In this document: positions 2,541-37,384 of the stretch, piece by piece
Position numbering within the stretch: the stretch's first letter is position 1
Layout of the letters: each line of letters starts with the position of its first letter
NCBI GenBank assembly: GCA_016219105.1
Contig: JACRCI010000108.1
Span: 1-38,947, forward strand
Length of the DNA: 38,947 nucleotides
Direction: 5' to 3'
Origin: Deltaproteobacteria bacterium
GTDB lineage: Bacteria > Desulfobacterota > GWC2-55-46 > DRQE01
Program-made: the position numbers and the translations under genes
Notes under the pieces: model-generated
The model's database searches: none
Told to the model about the DNA's origin: nothing
Seen by the model: the letters and a program-made list of their open reading frames with translations, nothing else

Positions 2541-4880
2541 CTAAAGCCTCGCGGCCTCCTCTTTCAGCTCATACGCCTCGATTACATCCCCGGCCTTTAT
2601 GTCGTTATAACCCTCTATGGACACGCCGCACTCATATCCGGCCTGAACCTCTCTGGCGTCCTCCTTGAACCTCTTGAGCGACGACACCTTGCCGTCGTAT
2701 ACGACCACGTTGTCCCTTATAAGCCGTACCTTGGAGTTCCTGACTATCTTTCCGTCGGTCACGTAACATCCGGCGATACTCCCGACCTTTGACACCTTGA
2801 AGACCTCCCGTATCTCGGCCCTGCCCAGCACCTCTTCCCGCACGACCGGCGCGAGCATGCCCTCCATGGCGTTTTTGACGTCGTCCACGAGGTTGTAGAT
2901 TACGTTATAGAACCTTACGTCTACTATCTCGCCTTCGGCCAGAGCCCTGGCCTTTGCCTCGGGCCGGACGTTAAACCCTATTATTATGGCGTTTGAGGCG
3001 GCGGCGAGCATCACGTCCCCCTCGTTTATCCCTCCAACGGCGCCGTGTATCACCTTAAGCCCGATCTTGTCGGAGGAGAGTTTCCCGAGGGCGTCTTTCA
3101 CGGCCTCTATGGAGCCCTGCACGTCGGCCTTGACCACCACGCTCAATTCCCTCACCTCTCCCTTTTTTATCCTCTCGTAGAGGTCGGCGAGGTTCACCTT
3201 GGCCGTCTTAAGCCTCTCCCTCTCCTGCGCCTTCCTCTGCCTCATCGCGGCTATCTGCCTCGCCGTGGCCTCGTCCTTCACGACGCTGAAGGTGTCGCCG
3301 GCCTCAGGCACGCCGGCAAGCCCGAGGACCTCGACCGGCATCGAGGGGCCCGCCTCGGAAATCCTCTTGCCCCAGTCGCTTATCATAGCCCTCAATCTTC
3401 CCGAATAAAGCCCGGCCACGCACGCGTCCCCGACCCTGAGCGTGCCGTTCTGTATAAGGACCGTTGACACGGGGCCCAGGCCCTTGTCGAGCTTCGCCTC
3501 GATTATGACCCCTTTTGCCGGGATGGACGGGCTTGCCTTGAGCTCAAGCATCTCCGACTGCAGGAGTATCATCTCAAGCAGTTCCTTTATCTTTATCCCC
3601 TTCTTTGCCGAGACCTCGACGAAAATGGCCTCTCCGCCCCAGTCCTCGGGGACGAGTCCGTACTCGGTAAGAGCCTGTTTCACCCTCTGCGGCTCGGCCT
3701 GAGGGAGATCCACCTTGTTCACGGCCACTATTATAGGGACCCCGGCGGCCCTTGCGTGGTTTATGGCCTCAACGGTCTGGGGCATGACCCCGTCATCGGC
3801 CGCCACAACGAGCACGACCAAGTCGGTCACCTTCGCCCCCCTCGCCCTCATGGCCGTGAAAGCCTCGTGGCCCGGCGTGTCGAGAAAGGTTATATCGCCC
3901 CTGTCGAGGTGCACGTGGTACGCGCCGATGTGCTGGGTTATCCCTCCGGCCTCGACGCTTGCGACATTGGTCCTCCTTATCGCGTCAAGGAGCGATGTCT
4001 TGCCGTGGTCCACATGCCCCATGACGGTCACCACAGGGGCCCTCGGCTTCAACTCGACGGGAACGGCCTCGGCGGGAGCGGCCTCGAACAGGGCCTCTTC
4101 CTGGACGGCGACGTTTTCTATCTCATAGCCGTATTCCTGCGCTACGAGCGCGGCCGAATCAGCGTCTATGAGATGGTTCACCGTAGCCAGGATGCCGCGG
4201 CCCATGAGCCTTTTGATTATCTCGCTCGCCTTCACCCCTATCCTCTGGGAGAATTCGGCGACGCTTATGGCCTCTTCTATCTTTATAACCCTTTTTTCAG
4301 CGCTGGGTACGGTAATCTCGGTCTTTTTAAGCGGCCTTGCCGTCTGGAGGGCTTGCTTGCGGGACGACCCTTCCCTGAGTTCGTAATGTCTGCCTTTTCT
4401 GAAAACCTGCCTCGGAGGATGTATCCTCTCCCCCTTGGTTTCCTTACCGAAAATCTTTACTTCCCTCTTGTGGACCTTTGCCGGTTTTTCCTCCGGAGCC
4501 TTGGCCGCGGCCGGTGCTTGCGCGGCCGGGACCTCCGCCTCGATTTTCCTTACGCCCTTTTCCAGGGCGGCCCTTGAGGTTTTTTTGGCGCCGGCCTTTG
4601 CCCTTGCGGTCTTTTTCTCGCCGGCGAGGCCGGCTGGTTGGCCGGCGGCCTCTTTAACGGACGTTTTCTTTTCTTTGACCTTTGCCTCGGCCTCAGGCTT
4701 CTCGGAGGAAGACGCAACAGGATGGGCGGGGGCCTCCTTCTCCTCTTTCTTCTCGGGAGCCGGCTTTTCCGCCACGGCCGCGCGCCTCCTGATAACGGCC
4801 GGCTTAATCCGCTTTTCTTCCACCCCGCCCCTGGGCGGGCTATCGGACTGGGCTGTTTTTGTGTTTTCCTTCTCTGTCAT
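2541..4880 (-). CDS. infB: Translation initiation factor IF-2
   Basis: GTPase motifs [36 protein letters not shown]; long charged N-terminal linker. Confidence 0.98.
4621..4650 (-). repeat. 21-bp palindromic repeat family, copy in infB
   Basis: CCGGCGAGGCCGGCTGGTTGGCCGGCGGCC; first 19 nt identical to 22068-22086. Encodes [10 protein letters not shown] in the IF-2 linker. Confidence 0.65.
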
Positions 4881-8270: not shown

Positions 8271-10031
8271 TTAATACCTTCGCGGACAAAAATCAACTGT
8301 TTTTTTGCCTCTCTCTTCGCTTTCTGAGACTTTAAGCCATTTCCGTATATGTCTTACCGCGTCCTTTTTGCCGCGCACCGTCCCTTCCTCGAAGGCCGAA
8401 CACAGCTCCCTCATTATTCTGCCGACAACCGGCCCCTCGGCCACGTTGAACGTATCCATTATCTCGCCGCCTCCCAGAATGGACTCTGCCCCGCCCCTGG
8501 CGTAGACGTTAAAATAAAACTCCAACATCTCTTTTACCACGGATAGAAGCCTCCTGTCCTCGCTCCCTCTCGTGGCCCTGGCGTCGGCAAGGCCGAGCAT
8601 CAACAAAAAAAGGCCCGTCTCCCCGCCGGCCTGCCAGCCGGCCTTGCCGGCGGCGTTGAAAAAATGCGCCCGTGTCCTGCCGGATGGTTCGGAAAGAGAC
8701 GCGAGAGTGAAAATGCGGTGGTGGTTCCTGACGATTGCGGCCACGGCCCTTATGACCCTGCGGGAGAATTTAAGCCTCCGTAAAATCTTTTTTACGAGGA
8801 TCTCGCCCTCCACGTCATGCCCCATGAAACTCAACCCTGATAGACGGCCCTGCCGGCCAACACTCCGTCCTCGACGGCCAACCAGCCGTCCCTGCCGGTC
8901 CTCGCCTTCCGCCTTCATGGTAAGAGGCTTGCCTATATCGTGGAAAAAGGCCGCGAGTTTGAACGTAACAGTCCTTTCCGCCTGCCGGCCCATGCCGCCT
9001 TCGAAATCGAAAAACCCCTTAAGCCCGCCGTTGAGTTTTTCCGCGCGGCCAACACTCCGTCCTCGACGGCCCGCCAGCCGGCCTTGCCGGCCAGAGGCGA
9101 GATAATCCGCTTCTTTAAGCGTTTTCAGGGAATGCGAGGCGATGTCATAGCTTGCGGCCTGCCAGCCGGCCTCGCCGGACTGCCAACCATCCTCGCCGGA
9201 CTGCCAGTATTTCAATTCCGGGATGATTGTCCCCAAAAGGCCGAGGGTAAAAAGCGTTTTCATGCTTTCCGCGGTTCCGGGATGCGCGAACATCAGGGTC
9301 ATCTCATCCCGTATCCTTTCCATCGCGCTCTTTTTAATGAGGCGGGCTTTTTCCTTAATCCACGCCCTCGTGGATTTTTCCACCTTGAAGGCATACTGCT
9401 GAGACAGCCTTACGGCCCTTAACATCCTCAGGGGGTCTTCGTCAAAGACCATAGCGGACACCGGGCGCAGTATCCGCTTTTTCGCATCTTCAATCCCTTC
9501 GCAGGGGTCTACGAGAGATGGCCTTTCGTTCTCAAAAACGTCCCTTATATCGAGGGCTGTCGCATTGACGGTGAAATCCCTTTCTTTCAAATCCGCGGTT
9601 ATACCGCTTCCCCTTACCGGCGCAATGTCAACCGTGCGTTGGATATCTCCCTTTACCGCTATCCTCCATGTAGAGGATTCCTCATCGAGCAGGAAAAAGC
9701 TTCCGCCGAGGGCTTCGGCGAGCCTCCGGGAAACCTCCCTGACCGTGCCTCCCTTCAGCCTATCGGCCCCGCCCTCCACGCACAGGTCATAGTCAGCACC
9801 CGGGGCTTCTCCGATGAGGAGGTTCCTTAAAACCCCGCCCACAAGATATATCTTTACTCCGGCTGACCGTCGAAGACGGCTGGTTGGCACGGCGAGGGCG
9901 TATATTTCCTTAATTACCGGGTCTTTTCTCAACGCCTTAAAAAGGCCGCCTGAAAAAGAAAAAGCCGACTTTTGCGGTCGGCCATTTCCTTTTCCCCTGA
10001 CGGAGATGCGGGTTTTTCTCTCTTCCATCAT
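8271..10031 (-). CDS. tRNA nucleotidyltransferase / poly(A) polymerase family protein with HD domain
   Basis: YLVGGVLRNLLIGEAPGADYDLCVEGG, RDFTVNATALDI and AAFFHDIGKP (HD). Contains several 21-bp repeat-derived inserts. The 10031 start is doubtful because of a terminator-like hairpin at 9964-9982. Confidence 0.9.
   Translation of the reverse strand: MMEERKTRISVRGKGNGRPQKSAFSFSGGLFKALRKDPVIKEIYALAVPTSRLRRSAGVKIYLVGGVLRNLLIGEAPGADYDLCVEGGADRLKGGTVREVSRRLAEALGGSFFLLDEESSTWRIAVKGDIQRTVDIAPVRGSGITADLKERDFTVNATALDIRDVFENERPSLVDPCEGIEDAKKRILRPVSAMVFDEDPLRMLRAVRLSQQYAFKVEKSTRAWIKEKARLIKKSAMERIRDEMTLMFAHPGTAESMKTLFTLGLLGTIIPELKYWQSGEDGWQSGEAGWQAASYDIASHSLKTLKEADYLASGRQGRLAGRRGRSVGRAEKLNGGLKGFFDFEGGMGRQAERTVTFKLAAFFHDIGKPLTMKAEGEDRQGRLVGRRGRSVGRQGRLSGLSFMGHDVEGEILVKKILRRLKFSRRVIRAVAAIVRNHHRIFTLASLSEPSGRTRAHFFNAAGKAGWQAGGETGLFLLMLGLADARATRGSEDRRLLSVVKEMLEFYFNVYARGGAESILGGGEIMDTFNVAEGPVVGRIMRELCSAFEEGTVRGKKDAVRHIRKWLKVSESEERGKKTVDFCPRRY
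8625..8653 (+). repeat. 21-bp palindromic repeat family, copy in CCA enzyme
   Basis: GCCGGCCTGCCAGCCGGCCTTGCCGGCGG; core at 8638-8650; encodes AGKAGWQAGGE. Confidence 0.75.
8842..8900 (+). repeat. 21-bp palindromic repeat family, three tandem units in CCA enzyme
   Basis: Cores at 8844, 8865 and 8886, exactly 21 nt apart; encodes RQGRLVGRRGRSVGRQGRLSG. Confidence 0.9.
9045..9093 (+). repeat. 21-bp palindromic repeat family, two tandem units in CCA enzyme
   Basis: Cores CCGTCCTCGACGG (9057) and CCGGCCTTGCCGG (9078), 21 nt apart; encodes GRQGRLAGRRGRSVGR. Confidence 0.9.
9155..9207 (+). repeat. 21-bp palindromic repeat family, two tandem units in CCA enzyme
   Basis: Cores at 9166 and 9187, 21 nt apart; encodes YWQSGEDGWQSGEAGWQA. 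Confidence 0.85.
9861..9894 (-). repeat. 21-bp palindromic repeat family, inverted copy in CCA enzyme N-terminus
   Basis: GGCTGACCGTCGAAGACGGCTGGTTGGCACGGCG; core CCGTCGAAGACGG at 9867-9879. Confidence 0.65.
9954..9982 (-). terminator. Terminator-like hairpin downstream of the TPR gene, inside the annotated 5' end of the CCA ORF
   Basis: Minus strand: GCCGAC-CGCAAAA-GTCGGC followed by TTTTTCTTTTTC. Confidence 0.55.
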
Positions 10032-19350: not shown

Positions 19351-22263
19351 CTAACCCCTGGTCTTGTCTTTTATAATGGTCGGGGTTATGAATATCAGCA
19401 ACTCCTTCTGGCTATCGGAGATGGATTTGCCCTTGAATATCCACCCCAATACCGGGATGTCCTTAAAGAACGGGATGCCCCTTTCGCTCCTGTTCGTGTC
19501 CGACACGATGATGCCGCCCATGACCGTGGTCTCTCCGTCCCCGACCAGCACGTTTGTGGTGGCCTCTTTTTTATTTATGCTCGGCTCCCCCCCTGACGTG
19601 CGGAAACTTCCGATCGAGTTTCTGTTTGCCTTTATCTCCATCAGCACGCTCCCGTCGGGCGTTATCTGCGGCTTGACCGTGAGGCTCAAGTTCGCGTCTA
19701 TGAATATCGTCTGGGTGCCGGTGGCCGACGTGGTCGAAAATGGTATGGACTCGCCCTGCGATATCTTGGCCTCCTTGTTGTTCATCGTCACTATCCGCGG
19801 CCTTGAGATGGTCTTTACGAGACCGTCCTGCTCGCCGGCGGATATCCTCAAGTCCAGGAGCATCGGGTTTGCGCCTACCCTGCCAAGGATGAACCCCAAC
19901 GCGCCGAGCGTGCCGGCGGTGCCGGAGGCCGGCAGGTTGACCGCGTAGTTCGTAACGCCAAGGTCGGAGGTGAAACCGGTTTTATCAGTCGCGGCAACCC
20001 CCTGGCCGGTCGCCGGCCCGGTCTGAGTCGCAGGCTGCGGCGCCTGCTGGCCGAAACTTTCCGCGCTTCCGAAAACGCTCGTATGAACCCTGTTGCCGGC
20101 CCCTCTCTGGTCAATGCCCCACTGGATCCCGAGGTCCCTGGCGAAGCTGGATTCGGCCTCGACTATGCGGGCCTCTATGAGCACCTGCGGTATTGGTATG
20201 TCCACCTTCCGTATGTAAAACCTGGCGCCTTCTATGGCTGATTTCACGTCTTTTATGACCAGGGTGTTCGTGGGCTCGTGCACCGTTATGCTGCCGCGGT
20301 CGGAAAGGACGCTTTTAACCTGCGCGGAGAGCGAGGCCGCCTTGTCGTAGTTTATCCTTATGTACTCGGTCTGGAGTTCCTCGAGTTTCTCCGCGGCCTT
20401 CCTGGCCGCAAGGACGGCCTCTTTCTCCTGCCGGATATTGTCAAGCGGGGCCACCCTCACGATGTTGCCTTCCTGTATCTTGTCCAGCCCCCTTACCTTC
20501 AGTATCAGGTCAAACGCCTGGTCCCACGGCACGTCGGTTAGCCTCAGGGTTATCGTGCCGACGACGTCCCCCGAGGCTATGATGTTTAAGTTGCTCACCT
20601 CGGCCAGGAGCTTCAATATGTCGGTGACCTTCGCGTCAACCATGTCTATGCTTATCCTGCGCCCCGTGTATTTCTTCTCCGGCAGCGGTTCCTTGCCACC
20701 CGCGGCAATAACAACGGCGGTCGGCGCGCCTGACTCTTTCTCAGCCTCAACCGCGGACGCTTCCGCGGGCTTCTCCGCGGATTTCTGCGGGGCCTTTACG
20801 GCCATGGCCGCCCGTGCCGGGAAATCCACGTTTATCGCGCCGTTATCCTCGGTCACTTCATAAGACGCCCTCTCCGAGAGCCTTACAAGCACCCGCACCC
20901 TCCAATCCGGCGCCGGGGAGGACTGATATGCACTTATCGTCGAGACCGGCGTGCCGAGGTCCGCGGCATCGAGGGTCATCTTGAGTTCTTCGGGTATGAC
21001 CGCGGACTGGATGTCAACCGTAACGGTCTTCCCGTCCAGAGACTCCTTGACCTGGTAATCCGCATGGGCTGAATTTACTATCGTAAGCCTCGCCGTATCC
21101 TTAAACTTCTTGAAATCCACCTTTTTAACCGTCGTGGACGGAGTGCTGGCCACAACCAGCGCCGCATTCGCCGTTTTTTCATCGGAACGCCGGGCCACGG
21201 CCGGAGAAACCGTCTCAGATGGAGTGCCGGCCGTCGTGGACGGCTGGTTGGCCGTCGTGGACGGAGTGATAGCCGCCTCAGGCGCGGCCTCTTTGGCCTT
21301 TTCAGCCGTTTTCGCCTCCGGCGCCCCGGCCACAACCACCAGGGGCAATGCCTCTTTCTTCTCCGCGCCGAAGATCACTACAAGGGCGCTCCCGGCCTTT
21401 TCCACGTGATAAGGGGGCACGGCCTTCCCGCTCGAGTCCAGTACGAACCTGACCTTGTCGGCGTATGACCCGACCCTTACCCTGTCCACCATGGGGAGGC
21501 CGACCTGGACGTTCCTTTTCTTCATGGCGCTCTTGACGTTCCATACGTCTATGACAACCCGCGCCGGATCGTCGAGGGCAAACGTGTTGTAGTTGCCGAC
21601 CCTGCCGTCGCCCTCGATCCTTACGACGGTGTTCGAGCCTTCCCTCGTTGCCGTGACATCCGTAATCGTCGTGGCAGTGGGACTCGTTTCCTCCCGCTTC
21701 CCTTCCGTTAACGCGGCCTCTTTCTCATCGGCCGGCGTAACGGCATCGGCCGCGGCCCCGGCGCCTTCTTTCGAGAGTTCTATCAGTATGCTTTTATCGC
21801 CGGATTTAATATCGTGCCCGACGCCCGCCTTCAGGCCTATCTCTATCCTCCCTATCGCATCGCCGCCGATGCCGTATGTCGAGGCGAGTATTTCCGTAAT
21901 GAAATCGTTATTGACGGCAATAGGGCTCTTTACGTTCTCAACGCTGGCGCCCGGCATGTCCACTATGACCCTGGGCGGATCGGACAGCCCGAAGGCCGTG
22001 TATTTCAACGGAACGTCCGACTCGATAATGACCGCGTTGCCGGCCCCCACGACGCTTGCGAGAACGACCGGCGAGGCCGGCTGGTTCACCCCGGCCGCCG
22101 GAGCGGGCGTTTCGCTTCCCTTAACCGCGGCCTGCTCCGCCGCGCATCCGGCCGCGAGCAAAAAGACGACCAGGACAAAACTCGCGAGAATGCCCCTTGA
22201 ACGGCCGGCACTTTGCCTGTGACGGCCAGCCAGCCATCCGTCATGGTTTCCTTTTATATTCAT
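19351..22263 (-). CDS. pilQ: Type IV pilus secretin PilQ with AMIN domains
   Basis: C-terminal secretin (VLIEARIVEAESSFARDLGIQWG; SRPRIVTMNNKEAKISQGESIPF; VLGWIFKGKS..KELLIFITPTII); STN/AMIN-like N-terminal regions. Confidence 0.95.
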   Translation of the reverse strand: MNIKGNHDGWLAGRHRQSAGRSRGILASFVLVVFLLAAGCAAEQAAVKGSETPAPAAGVNQPASPVVLASVVGAGNAVIIESDVPLKYTAFGLSDPPRVIVDMPGASVENVKSPIAVNNDFITEILASTYGIGGDAIGRIEIGLKAGVGHDIKSGDKSILIELSKEGAGAAADAVTPADEKEAALTEGKREETSPTATTITDVTATREGSNTVVRIEGDGRVGNYNTFALDDPARVVIDVWNVKSAMKKRNVQVGLPMVDRVRVGSYADKVRFVLDSSGKAVPPYHVEKAGSALVVIFGAEKKEALPLVVVAGAPEAKTAEKAKEAAPEAAITPSTTANQPSTTAGTPSETVSPAVARRSDEKTANAALVVASTPSTTVKKVDFKKFKDTARLTIVNSAHADYQVKESLDGKTVTVDIQSAVIPEELKMTLDAADLGTPVSTISAYQSSPAPDWRVRVLVRLSERASYEVTEDNGAINVDFPARAAMAVKAPQKSAEKPAEASAVEAEKESGAPTAVVIAAGGKEPLPEKKYTGRRISIDMVDAKVTDILKLLAEVSNLNIIASGDVVGTITLRLTDVPWDQAFDLILKVRGLDKIQEGNIVRVAPLDNIRQEKEAVLAARKAAEKLEELQTEYIRINYDKAASLSAQVKSVLSDRGSITVHEPTNTLVIKDVKSAIEGARFYIRKVDIPIPQVLIEARIVEAESSFARDLGIQWGIDQRGAGNRVHTSVFGSAESFGQQAPQPATQTGPATGQGVAATDKTGFTSDLGVTNYAVNLPASGTAGTLGALGFILGRVGANPMLLDLRISAGEQDGLVKTISRPRIVTMNNKEAKISQGESIPFSTTSATGTQTIFIDANLSLTVKPQITPDGSVLMEIKANRNSIGSFRTSGGEPSINKKEATTNVLVGDGETTVMGGIIVSDTNRSERGIPFFKDIPVLGWIFKGKSISDSQKELLIFITPTIIKDKTRG
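21129..21152 (-). repeat. 21-bp palindromic repeat family, inverted copy in pilQ
   Basis: CCGTCGTGGACGGAGTGCTGGCCA; encodes VASTPSTTV. Confidence 0.8.
21210..21272 (-). repeat. 21-bp palindromic repeat family, three tandem inverted units in pilQ
   Basis: Cores at 21210, 21231 and 21252, 21 nt apart; encodes TPSTTAN-QPSTTAG-TPSETVS (7-aa periodicity). Confidence 0.9.
22068..22086 (-). repeat. 21-bp palindromic repeat family, partial inverted copy in pilQ
   Basis: CCGGCGAGGCCGGCTGGTT, identical to 4621-4639. Confidence 0.6.
22201..22248 (+). repeat. 21-bp palindromic repeat family, degenerate two-unit copy in pilQ signal-peptide n-region
   Basis: GGCACTTTGCCTGTGACGGCCAGCCAGCCATCCGTCATGG; core CCATCCGTCATGG. 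Confidence 0.65.
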
Positions 22264-34385: not shown

Positions 34386-35986
34386 TACGCCTCTCCCGGC
34401 ATCTCTGGAATGAGCACCCGGAAAACGCTCCCCTCGCCGGGCGCTGATTCAACCTCTATCGTGCCGCCGCAGGCCTTTACGATGGTCTGCGACATGAAAA
34501 GCCCCAGACCCGTGCCGAGGCCCGGCGGCTTTGTCGTATAGAAAGGGTCGAATATCTTTTCCATGTCTTCCTTTTTTACGCCGCGGCCCCCGTCGGCCAC
34601 GCTTACGGCCACTGACCGCCTCTCAGCCCTGCCCGCCAGCCGGCCCTGCCGGTTATCCATGACGGCCGGAAGAGGCCCCGGGTCGTCCTTGCGCACCCGG
34701 ACCGGGGTTTTGACCGCAACGGGCCGGCTTACGGCCGAGGTCTCGACCGTAACCACGCCGCCTCGGGCGCCCGTGGCCTCGGCCGCGTTGATGAGGAGGT
34801 TCAGCAATACCTGCCTGAGCCTGTCCCCGTCCATATTAACAGGCGGGAGATTGTCCTGCAATTTAAGCTCCGTTGTCACGCCCTTGAAGGCGGCATCGCA
34901 GGAAAGGAGCGCCGACGTCTCTTTAACTATCGCGTTCACGTCCGCCGCATGGGCGGGCGCTTTCGGGGGCCGCGATATGTAGAGGAACTCCTTCACTATC
35001 CTGTCTATCCTTGATATCTCCCTTACCGTCCTTTCGATTATGTCCTTTTCCTCGGCCCTGTCACATAAGCCCTTGGCCAGGACTCCGAGATAGCCGCTCA
35101 CCGCGCCGAGCGGATTCCCTATCTCATGGGCTATACCGGCGGCAAGCCTTCCGACCGAGGCAAGCGTCTGGGTCCTCAAAAGCTCCTCCTGCGTGTCCAT
35201 GAGTTCACCGTTCACCCTGCCGAGCCTTTCTATCTCCAATTGGAGCCTCTCGGCCATGGAGTTGAACGCCGAGGCCAGGCGGCCTATCTCGTCGTTGCCA
35301 ACGACCTCGGCCCTTACGCCGAGGTCCCCGCCCGATATGCGCGTTGCCGCCGTCTCAAGCCTCTTTACCGGCCTTATTATGAAACGCGACAGGAAATAAA
35401 TCCCGAGGGCCATGATGATAACCGAGTCAACGACCGCGTAAAATACTATGACCCTGCGCATGGTCGAGGAGTAAAGGGCTATGTCCGAAAGCGATACCGT
35501 GAACTCGGCCCTCAACGCCTCGGCCCCGCCCGTGCCCTCGGCCACGGTCACGCGTAGCAGCCTGCCGGGCCCCCCGAACCAGTCAGTCGTCCACGACGGC
35601 CAACCAGCCGTCCACGACGGCCGCCCGTGGCCGAGCCTGTGTATCTTGACACCGTTCTCGAAAAAAACGCTCTCGCCCTTTTCGGCTGGAAGGTCTCCCT
35701 CGGAAAAGACCGCGTTCCCGTCCCTGTCTCTTATGACCATGGCGGATATGCCGGAGGCGCGCATAACGCCCCTGGCGTACCCTTCAATGCCCGAGGGGTT
35801 TTTAACGTCCAGGACCGTAACGCGCAGGATATTCGCGACCTTGACGGCCTCGCCTACCTTGAGGGTCAGGGCGTTGGTCTGAAGGAGCAAAACGCTCAAG
35901 GCCCCCACGAATCCTATGGCGGCGAGCGTCGTTACCACGATGCCTGAGATGAGCTGCGCCCTTATGCCCGTGGTCGTAAGCTTCAT
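34385..35986 (-). CDS. pilS: Membrane sensor histidine kinase, PilS-like
   Basis: MKLTTTGIRAQLISGIVVTTLAAIGFVGAL TM, HAMP, H-box GRLAAGIAHEIGNPLGAVSGYL, N-box VLLNLLINAAEA, VADGGRGV, GTGLGLFMSQTIV. Start revised to 35986. Confidence 0.9.
   Translation of the reverse strand: MKLTTTGIRAQLISGIVVTTLAAIGFVGALSVLLLQTNALTLKVGEAVKVANILRVTVLDVKNPSGIEGYARGVMRASGISAMVIRDRDGNAVFSEGDLPAEKGESVFFENGVKIHRLGHGRPSWTAGWPSWTTDWFGGPGRLLRVTVAEGTGGAEALRAEFTVSLSDIALYSSTMRRVIVFYAVVDSVIIMALGIYFLSRFIIRPVKRLETAATRISGGDLGVRAEVVGNDEIGRLASAFNSMAERLQLEIERLGRVNGELMDTQEELLRTQTLASVGRLAAGIAHEIGNPLGAVSGYLGVLAKGLCDRAEEKDIIERTVREISRIDRIVKEFLYISRPPKAPAHAADVNAIVKETSALLSCDAAFKGVTTELKLQDNLPPVNMDGDRLRQVLLNLLINAAEATGARGGVVTVETSAVSRPVAVKTPVRVRKDDPGPLPAVMDNRQGRLAGRAERRSVAVSVADGGRGVKKEDMEKIFDPFYTTKPPGLGTGLGLFMSQTIVKACGGTIEVESAPGEGSVFRVLIPEMPGEA
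34633..34670 (+). repeat. 21-bp palindromic repeat family, copy in pilS ATPase domain
   Basis: CCGCCAGCCGGCCCTGCCGGTTATCCATGACGGCCGGA; encodes MDNRQGRLAGR. Confidence 0.8.
35579..35625 (+). repeat. 21-bp palindromic repeat family, two tandem units in pilS sensor region
   Basis: Cores at 35587 and 35608, 21 nt apart; encodes GRPSWTAGWPSWTTDW. Confidence 0.9.
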
Positions 35987-36774: not shown

Positions 36775-36807
36775 CGTGTGTTACCGATCCTCCGTCGGGT
36801 GAGCGGC

Positions 36808-36849
36808 CCGGCCGGCCACGCCGGCCAACCAGCCGTCTATGACGGCTAA
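36808..36849 (+). repeat. 21-bp palindromic repeat family, two tandem units at the HEPN gene 3' end
   Basis: CCGGCCGGCCACGCCGGCCAACCAGCCGTCTATGACGGCTAA; cores at 36812 and 36833, 21 nt apart. Confidence 0.9.
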
Positions 36850-37321: not shown

Positions 37322-37384
37322 CAACCGGCCTCGACGGCCCACCAGCCGTCCATGACGGCCTACCAGCCGGCCACGCCGGTCAAT
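37322..37384 (+). repeat. 21-bp palindromic repeat family, three tandem units between the HEPN gene and argJ
   Basis: Cores CCGGCCTCGACGG (37325), CCGTCCATGACGG (37346), CCGGCCACGCCGG (37367), exactly 21 nt apart. Confidence 0.92.

Follow-up and report, generated by a model that had tools for sequence, protein, structure and literature searches.

Probable copies of a dispersed 21-nt hairpin repeat form five in-frame inserts in a bacterial CCA/poly(A) polymerase-type gene

Introduction

In Nostoc and its relatives, the small dispersed repeats (SDR) treated by Elhai et al. 2008, a paper cited in PMC3116915, are reportedly hairpins of 21–27 nt with compensatory changes. They are said to be dispersed, to have no known transposase and to occur as nested or adjacent copies. 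To our knowledge, they are not known for systematic in-frame insertion of 7 codons.

Protein-coding palindromic repeats have been described in Rickettsia (RPE), Wolbachia (WPE) and Methanocaldococcus jannaschii, where they lie in frame in unrelated housekeeping genes as well as between genes and are tolerated by the proteins (PMC10969869, PMC2229807, PMC2996958). RPEs are about 100–150 bp in size and form a long stem-loop (PMC2229807, PMC10969869). PARCEL repeats are palindromic protein-coding DNA as well and encode amphipathic protein domains of 25 residues (PMC2996958). REP-type repeats are short, species-specific hairpins located near the 3' ends of genes, some of them within genes of several species; the CGTC-tagged REPs have a stem of 8–9 bp, a loop of 4–5 nt and a 3-bp tail, form head-to-head dimers with negligible head-to-tail arrangement and are without a dedicated transposase (PMC3733652). 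REPINs are tied to RAYT transposases (PMC3116915).

The present work concerns a stretch of 38,947 nt of an uncultured Deltaproteobacteria bacterium (contig JACRCI010000108.1, assembly GCA_016219105.1), hereafter the window. A sequence-only reading had claimed five separate repeat-derived inserts in its CCA/poly(A) polymerase-type gene. All five are there and coincide with whole units of one dispersed repeat (Table 1). The inserts are very probably copies of a single non-autonomous hairpin repeat which has spread genome-wide, is frame-neutral and is tolerated under selection.

Table 1. Features of the window discussed in the text.
Feature	Position	Strand	Remarks
CCA/poly(A) polymerase-type nucleotidyltransferase gene with HD domain	8271-10031	minus	586 aa; carries five inserts
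Insert 1, one unit, CCGTCGAAGACGG + CTGGTTGG	9867-9887	+ (antisense to CCA gene)	residues 49-55 PTSRLRR; 7-residue gap in homologues
Insert 2, two units, peptide SGEDGWQSGEAGWQ	9158-9199	-	C-terminal side of RNA-binding region; 13 extra residues
Insert 3, two units, peptide RQGRLAGRRGRSVG	9049-9090	-	14 residues plus 1-2 of local slack
Insert 4, three units (third imperfect), peptide RQGRLVGRRGRSVGRQGRLSG	8836-8898	-	21 extra residues, within HD domain
Insert 5, one unit, peptide KAGWQAG	8630-8650	-	exactly 7 extra residues
Repeat match in translation initiation factor IF-2 gene	4621-4644	+ (antisense to gene)	
Three-unit array in pilQ-like secretin gene	21210-21275	+ (antisense to gene)	peptide TPSTTANQPSTTAGTPSETV
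Two-unit array in histidine kinase gene	35577-35620	-	peptide PSWTAGWPSWTTDW
Intergenic unit	36822-36845	-	then partly matching hairpin at 36802-36821
Two-unit intergenic array	37335-37379	-	same 21-nt register

Results and Discussion

The CCA protein and its inserts

The CCA protein consists of the nucleotidyltransferase head (Pfam PolyA_pol, residues 61–189), the RNA-binding region (215–275) and the HD domain (356–442), all with the conserved motifs of class II nucleotidyltransferases (CCA/poly(A) polymerase family). Its closest solved structure is 3wfo. When aligned by MAFFT with 27 homologues taken from relatives, it keeps 72 of the 73 near-invariant columns, the sole change being E to D at position 309. 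The catalytic residues are thus spared, as had been expected, and on this evidence the enzyme looks functional despite its five inserts.

The five sites hold 7, 13, 14, 21 and 7 extra residues, aligned with gaps in essentially every homologue, and comprise 1, 2, 2, 3 and 1 whole 21-nt units, respectively. Conserved counterparts of the peptides in homologues, which would have refuted the sequence-only reading, were not found: the insert peptides are missing from all 27 aligned homologues. The peptides quoted in the sequence-only reading are real as well, except that they overlap the flanking native residues by 1–3 positions. Over 45 nt, insert 3 matches insert 4 with 91% DNA identity, and the two have an unusual spacer order in common (in insert 3, the CTGG type followed by the AGTG type); this likeness suggests local copying. 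Two further segments, residues 87–94 (about 8 extra) and 347–349 (3 extra), are longer than in the homologues and contain no recognisable units; these length differences could be decayed repeat copies.

The presumed location of the inserts in surface loops is only partly supported. Among the insert sites, the length at 465–471 varies naturally in 4 of the 27 homologues, and that at 279–291 in 1 of the 27. Insert 1 sits immediately ahead of the NT domain. The 21-residue insert 4, on the other hand, falls between H364-D365 and G404-H405 of the HD domain, beside highly conserved columns (mean identity up to 0.84). Judged by the alignment, the inserts avoid the catalytic residues, yet some of their sites have no obvious permissiveness. 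The single-sequence AlphaFold model of the protein (pLDDT 34.7) was not usable.

Neither a second PolyA_pol gene nor a separate gene of an A-adding enzyme was found in the genome, which is 95% complete (about 5% is missing). Relatives possess a second nucleotidyltransferase-like gene coding for about 430–950 aa. Since no counterpart of it was found here, the CCA enzyme may be the only one of the genome, or the other gene may belong to the missing 5%. The designation of the gene as essential-type is therefore plausible.

Structure of the repeat unit

The unit is 21 nt long and is composed of a 13-nt hairpin CCGKC-RNG-GMCGG (5-bp stem, 3-nt loop) and an 8-nt spacer (CTGGYTGG or AGTGYYGG). Around all strict copies the spacer is mostly CTGGTTGG and at times AGTGCCGG or AGTGTTGG. 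Units are arranged head to tail, one to four per array. A full hairpin precedes the spacer in 54 of 65 cases, but a second full hairpin comes after only 89 of 180 hairpins with their spacer, so the left end of the array is fixed and the right end is variable. In 49%, the position just ahead of the first unit is occupied by A. The 21-nt period is observed in 38 of 43 coding arrays and also in 25 of 26 non-coding ones, which means that this length is intrinsic to the repeat and is not imposed by reading frames or coding selection.

The two arms of the hairpin covary. The variable stem pair is T-A in 168 cases, G-C in 123, T-C in 19 and G-A in 7; it is thus of Watson-Crick type in 87.7%, against 48.1% expected from the column make-up if the positions were independent. 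This covariation argues that the hairpin itself, beyond the sequence alone, is maintained or copied as such. The folding energy of the copies in the CCA gene is no better than that of shuffled sequences (RNA folding z-scores not significant), and no Rfam match was found in the window.

The same data bear on the possibility that the inserts originated at each site separately, a short GC-rich sequence having undergone slippage or tandem duplication there with no dispersal. The unit is capable of tandem arrangement and arrays of 2–4 units do exist, but 162 of 211 arrays have a single unit, and near-identical units are found on either strand at over 200 places. Moreover, adjacent units of an array hardly exceed random ones in similarity (7.14 vs 6.91 of 11 sites). 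On the strength of this dissimilarity plain slippage was rejected as the origin, and an origin at each site separately is very unlikely in general.

Abundance in the genome

The strict pattern of the unit has 204 copies on both strands of the 1.87-Mb genome and 0 in the reversed control. Further statistics were collected from 1.02 Mb of stretches, the window included. With up to 3 mismatches allowed, this sample contains 245 arrays as compared to 41 clusters in the reversed sequence. Predicted genes harbor 164 of the 245 arrays, in either orientation, and 105 of 974 genes (at least about a tenth, 11%) are affected; these rates may be slightly high, as the stretches were picked partly for hits, and they depend on genes called by a simple codon-usage script of our own, not by a standard gene finder. 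Four or more arrays were found in eight genes, among them those of GlnE and of a MiaB-like radical SAM protein; UvrD has two arrays at up to two mismatches. The CCA gene had been proposed as the best test of how a protein tolerates repeated insertion. With at least seven other genes in the sampled half of the genome carrying four or more arrays, it does not stand out in this way: it is a good example of the repeat-insert family and not a unique one.

Arrays are clustered along the genome, with a variance-to-mean ratio of 2.25 in 5-kb bins against a simulated maximum of 1.34, and those less than 1.5 kb apart are more alike than random ones (7.98 vs 7.18, sd 0.17). The local clustering is in line with partly local spread but might also mirror regional tolerance. 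The array density is 5.9 nt per kb in coding and 19.8 nt per kb in non-coding DNA, i.e. 3.4 times lower in coding DNA.

The higher density between genes, together with the covariation of the arms, would also be expected if the units were functional DNA or RNA sites (a REP-like terminator, an mRNA stabiliser or a binding site of a chromosome-organising protein) and were retained by selection at any location, genes included. In line with this, the distance to the 3' end of a predicted gene is no more than 5 nt for 19 of 66 intergenic arrays, and 16 of these 19 begin right at the predicted stop codon in the gene's own orientation, as REPs often do. However, two thirds of the arrays are genic and have either orientation, and the sequence is missing from nine genomes of the same family. 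Such a function would leave the origin of new copies unexplained and is in itself compatible with mobility. As a replacement for a mobile repeat it is rather improbable.

A second, unrelated dispersed repeat is present in the sampled host genome (loci L061-L168). It is AT-richer (CGAAGCAATCTCGT... and TGTCATGCTGAACTTGTTTCAG) and has ~50 core-word copies in 1.02 Mb.

Effect on the encoded proteins

Of 23 well-aligned arrays, 11 show a net gain of exactly 7n residues over homologues in relatives (mostly from one same-family genome), with about 3 expected; the quality cut was chosen after the table had been seen, and 4 of these 23 arrays are inserts of the CCA protein. The six possible frames are used unequally (n=114, p = 8e-6): GQPAVLD 32, NQPSSTA 26, PSRTAGW 23, VEDGWLA 21, RRGRLVG 9 and PTSRPRR 3, the two arginine-rich frames being the rarest. 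Spacers containing TAG are scarce within genes (3 of 143) as compared to the DNA outside them (9 of 71; p = 0.003). The frame bias and the scarcity of TAG suggest that the inserts are translated and that selection has sifted them.

It could be supposed from the frame bias, which indicates that the peptide matters to fitness, that the peptides are adaptive modules such as binding or localisation tags on many proteins; in the window, arrays do occur in several genes for the pilus and the envelope. Nevertheless, at least four quite different peptides are found, and they occur in unrelated cytoplasmic enzymes. The rarity of the arginine-rich frames looks like loss of bad inserts and not like the choice of one good peptide. 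We regard an adaptive role of this kind as highly doubtful.

Presence in other genomes

No copies of the unit were found in nine other genomes of the same family, none of which belongs to the host's genus. A single copy each was found in two of 99 relatives up to the phylum level. When 85,488 species were scanned, a set from which near relatives are possibly absent, only isolated single matches in unrelated genomes and no second expansion were obtained, and no copies were found in viral contigs. The repeat family is real and striking and apparently restricted to its lineage. The same-family genome G006 (loci L169-L205), compared over about 0.62 Mb, has a different repeat of its own, ACCAATGTCTGCGCACAACTCACAA, with 11 core copies in that length.

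The host genome is an assembly of 137 contigs with 95% completeness, a circumstance which might raise the suspicion of an assembly or binning artefact. The units are, however, distributed over many contigs, leave reading frames open, lie within conserved genes having homologues in relatives and show covarying arms, so that an artefact is extremely improbable.

Origin and spread

The preferred explanation, a dispersed hairpin repeat, can be outlined as follows. The 21-nt hairpin repeat would be copied across the genome into intergenic and coding DNA alike. The inserted length corresponds to a multiple of 21 nt, or 7 codons, and in none of the six frames does the consensus unit contain a stop. 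An insertion of either orientation and any phase would therefore leave the gene intact and lengthen its product by 7n residues. Selection would then purge harmful copies, and the surviving ones would be found in places tolerated by the protein and in frames giving less arginine-rich peptides. We infer that the copies were mobile, that they behave as selfish DNA and serve no purpose in the protein, and that their spread was partly local.

Several candidate movers were considered. In the 95% complete genome no match was obtained for Y1/RAYT (PF01797; control genomes were positive), for a reverse transcriptase gene or for the IS110-type transposase (PF02371), and RAYT, reverse transcriptase and IS110 were rejected as movers of the repeat for want of a matching gene. 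It is conceivable, though we put this forward only tentatively, that the unit belongs to a hitherto undescribed class of mobile hairpin elements of very small size: an exact 21-nt unit, open in six frames and frame-neutral, spreading through genes as far as selection allows by a mechanism outside the transposase and reverse transcriptase families tested. The question raised by it is which agent copies an element as short as 21 bases.

The repeat family amounts to a natural insertion-scanning experiment across a whole proteome. Many conserved enzymes (the CCA enzyme, GlnE, the MiaB-like enzyme, UvrD, IF-2 and others) have defined inserts of 7n residues in known frames; hence the insertion tolerance of real proteins can be read directly and tested by removal of the inserts. 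Beyond Rickettsia and Wolbachia, it provides a further type of genome where new protein sequence is created from repeats.

Comparison with known repeat systems

Like the Rickettsia palindromic elements, the 21-nt repeat is palindromic, dispersed and placed in frame in unrelated protein genes. It differs from them in size, having a 21-nt unit with a 5-bp stem in head-to-tail arrays of 1–4 units, and in that it uses any frame and either strand and reaches at least 11% of the sampled genes. With PARCELs it shares the coding of protein by palindromic repeat DNA, but its products are low-complexity peptides of 7 residues in several frames.

With REPs the 21-nt repeat shares a short hairpin apparently confined to its lineage, copies close to gene 3' ends and others within genes. 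As with the CGTC-tagged REPs, no dedicated transposase was found for it; its structure is different, with a 5-bp stem, a 3-nt loop and a head-to-tail period of 21 nt. The REPIN/RAYT system differs as well, as no RAYT was found in the host genome, of which about 5% is missing. MITEs are characterised by the terminal inverted repeats of a parent transposon and by target-site duplication; for comparison with them, two transposase families were searched, IS110-type (PF02371) and Y1, and neither had a match in the host genome.

The cyanobacterial small dispersed repeats appear to be the nearest known system in size and behaviour. They too are said to be dispersed units of about this length with compensatory stem changes, as seen here in the excess of Watson-Crick pairs. 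Their lineage is different, and their sequence appears to be so as well. Most probably, the repeat works by a principle shared with RPEs and SDRs, namely selfish hairpin DNA tolerated in frame; what differs would be the 7-codon unit and the head-to-tail arrays.
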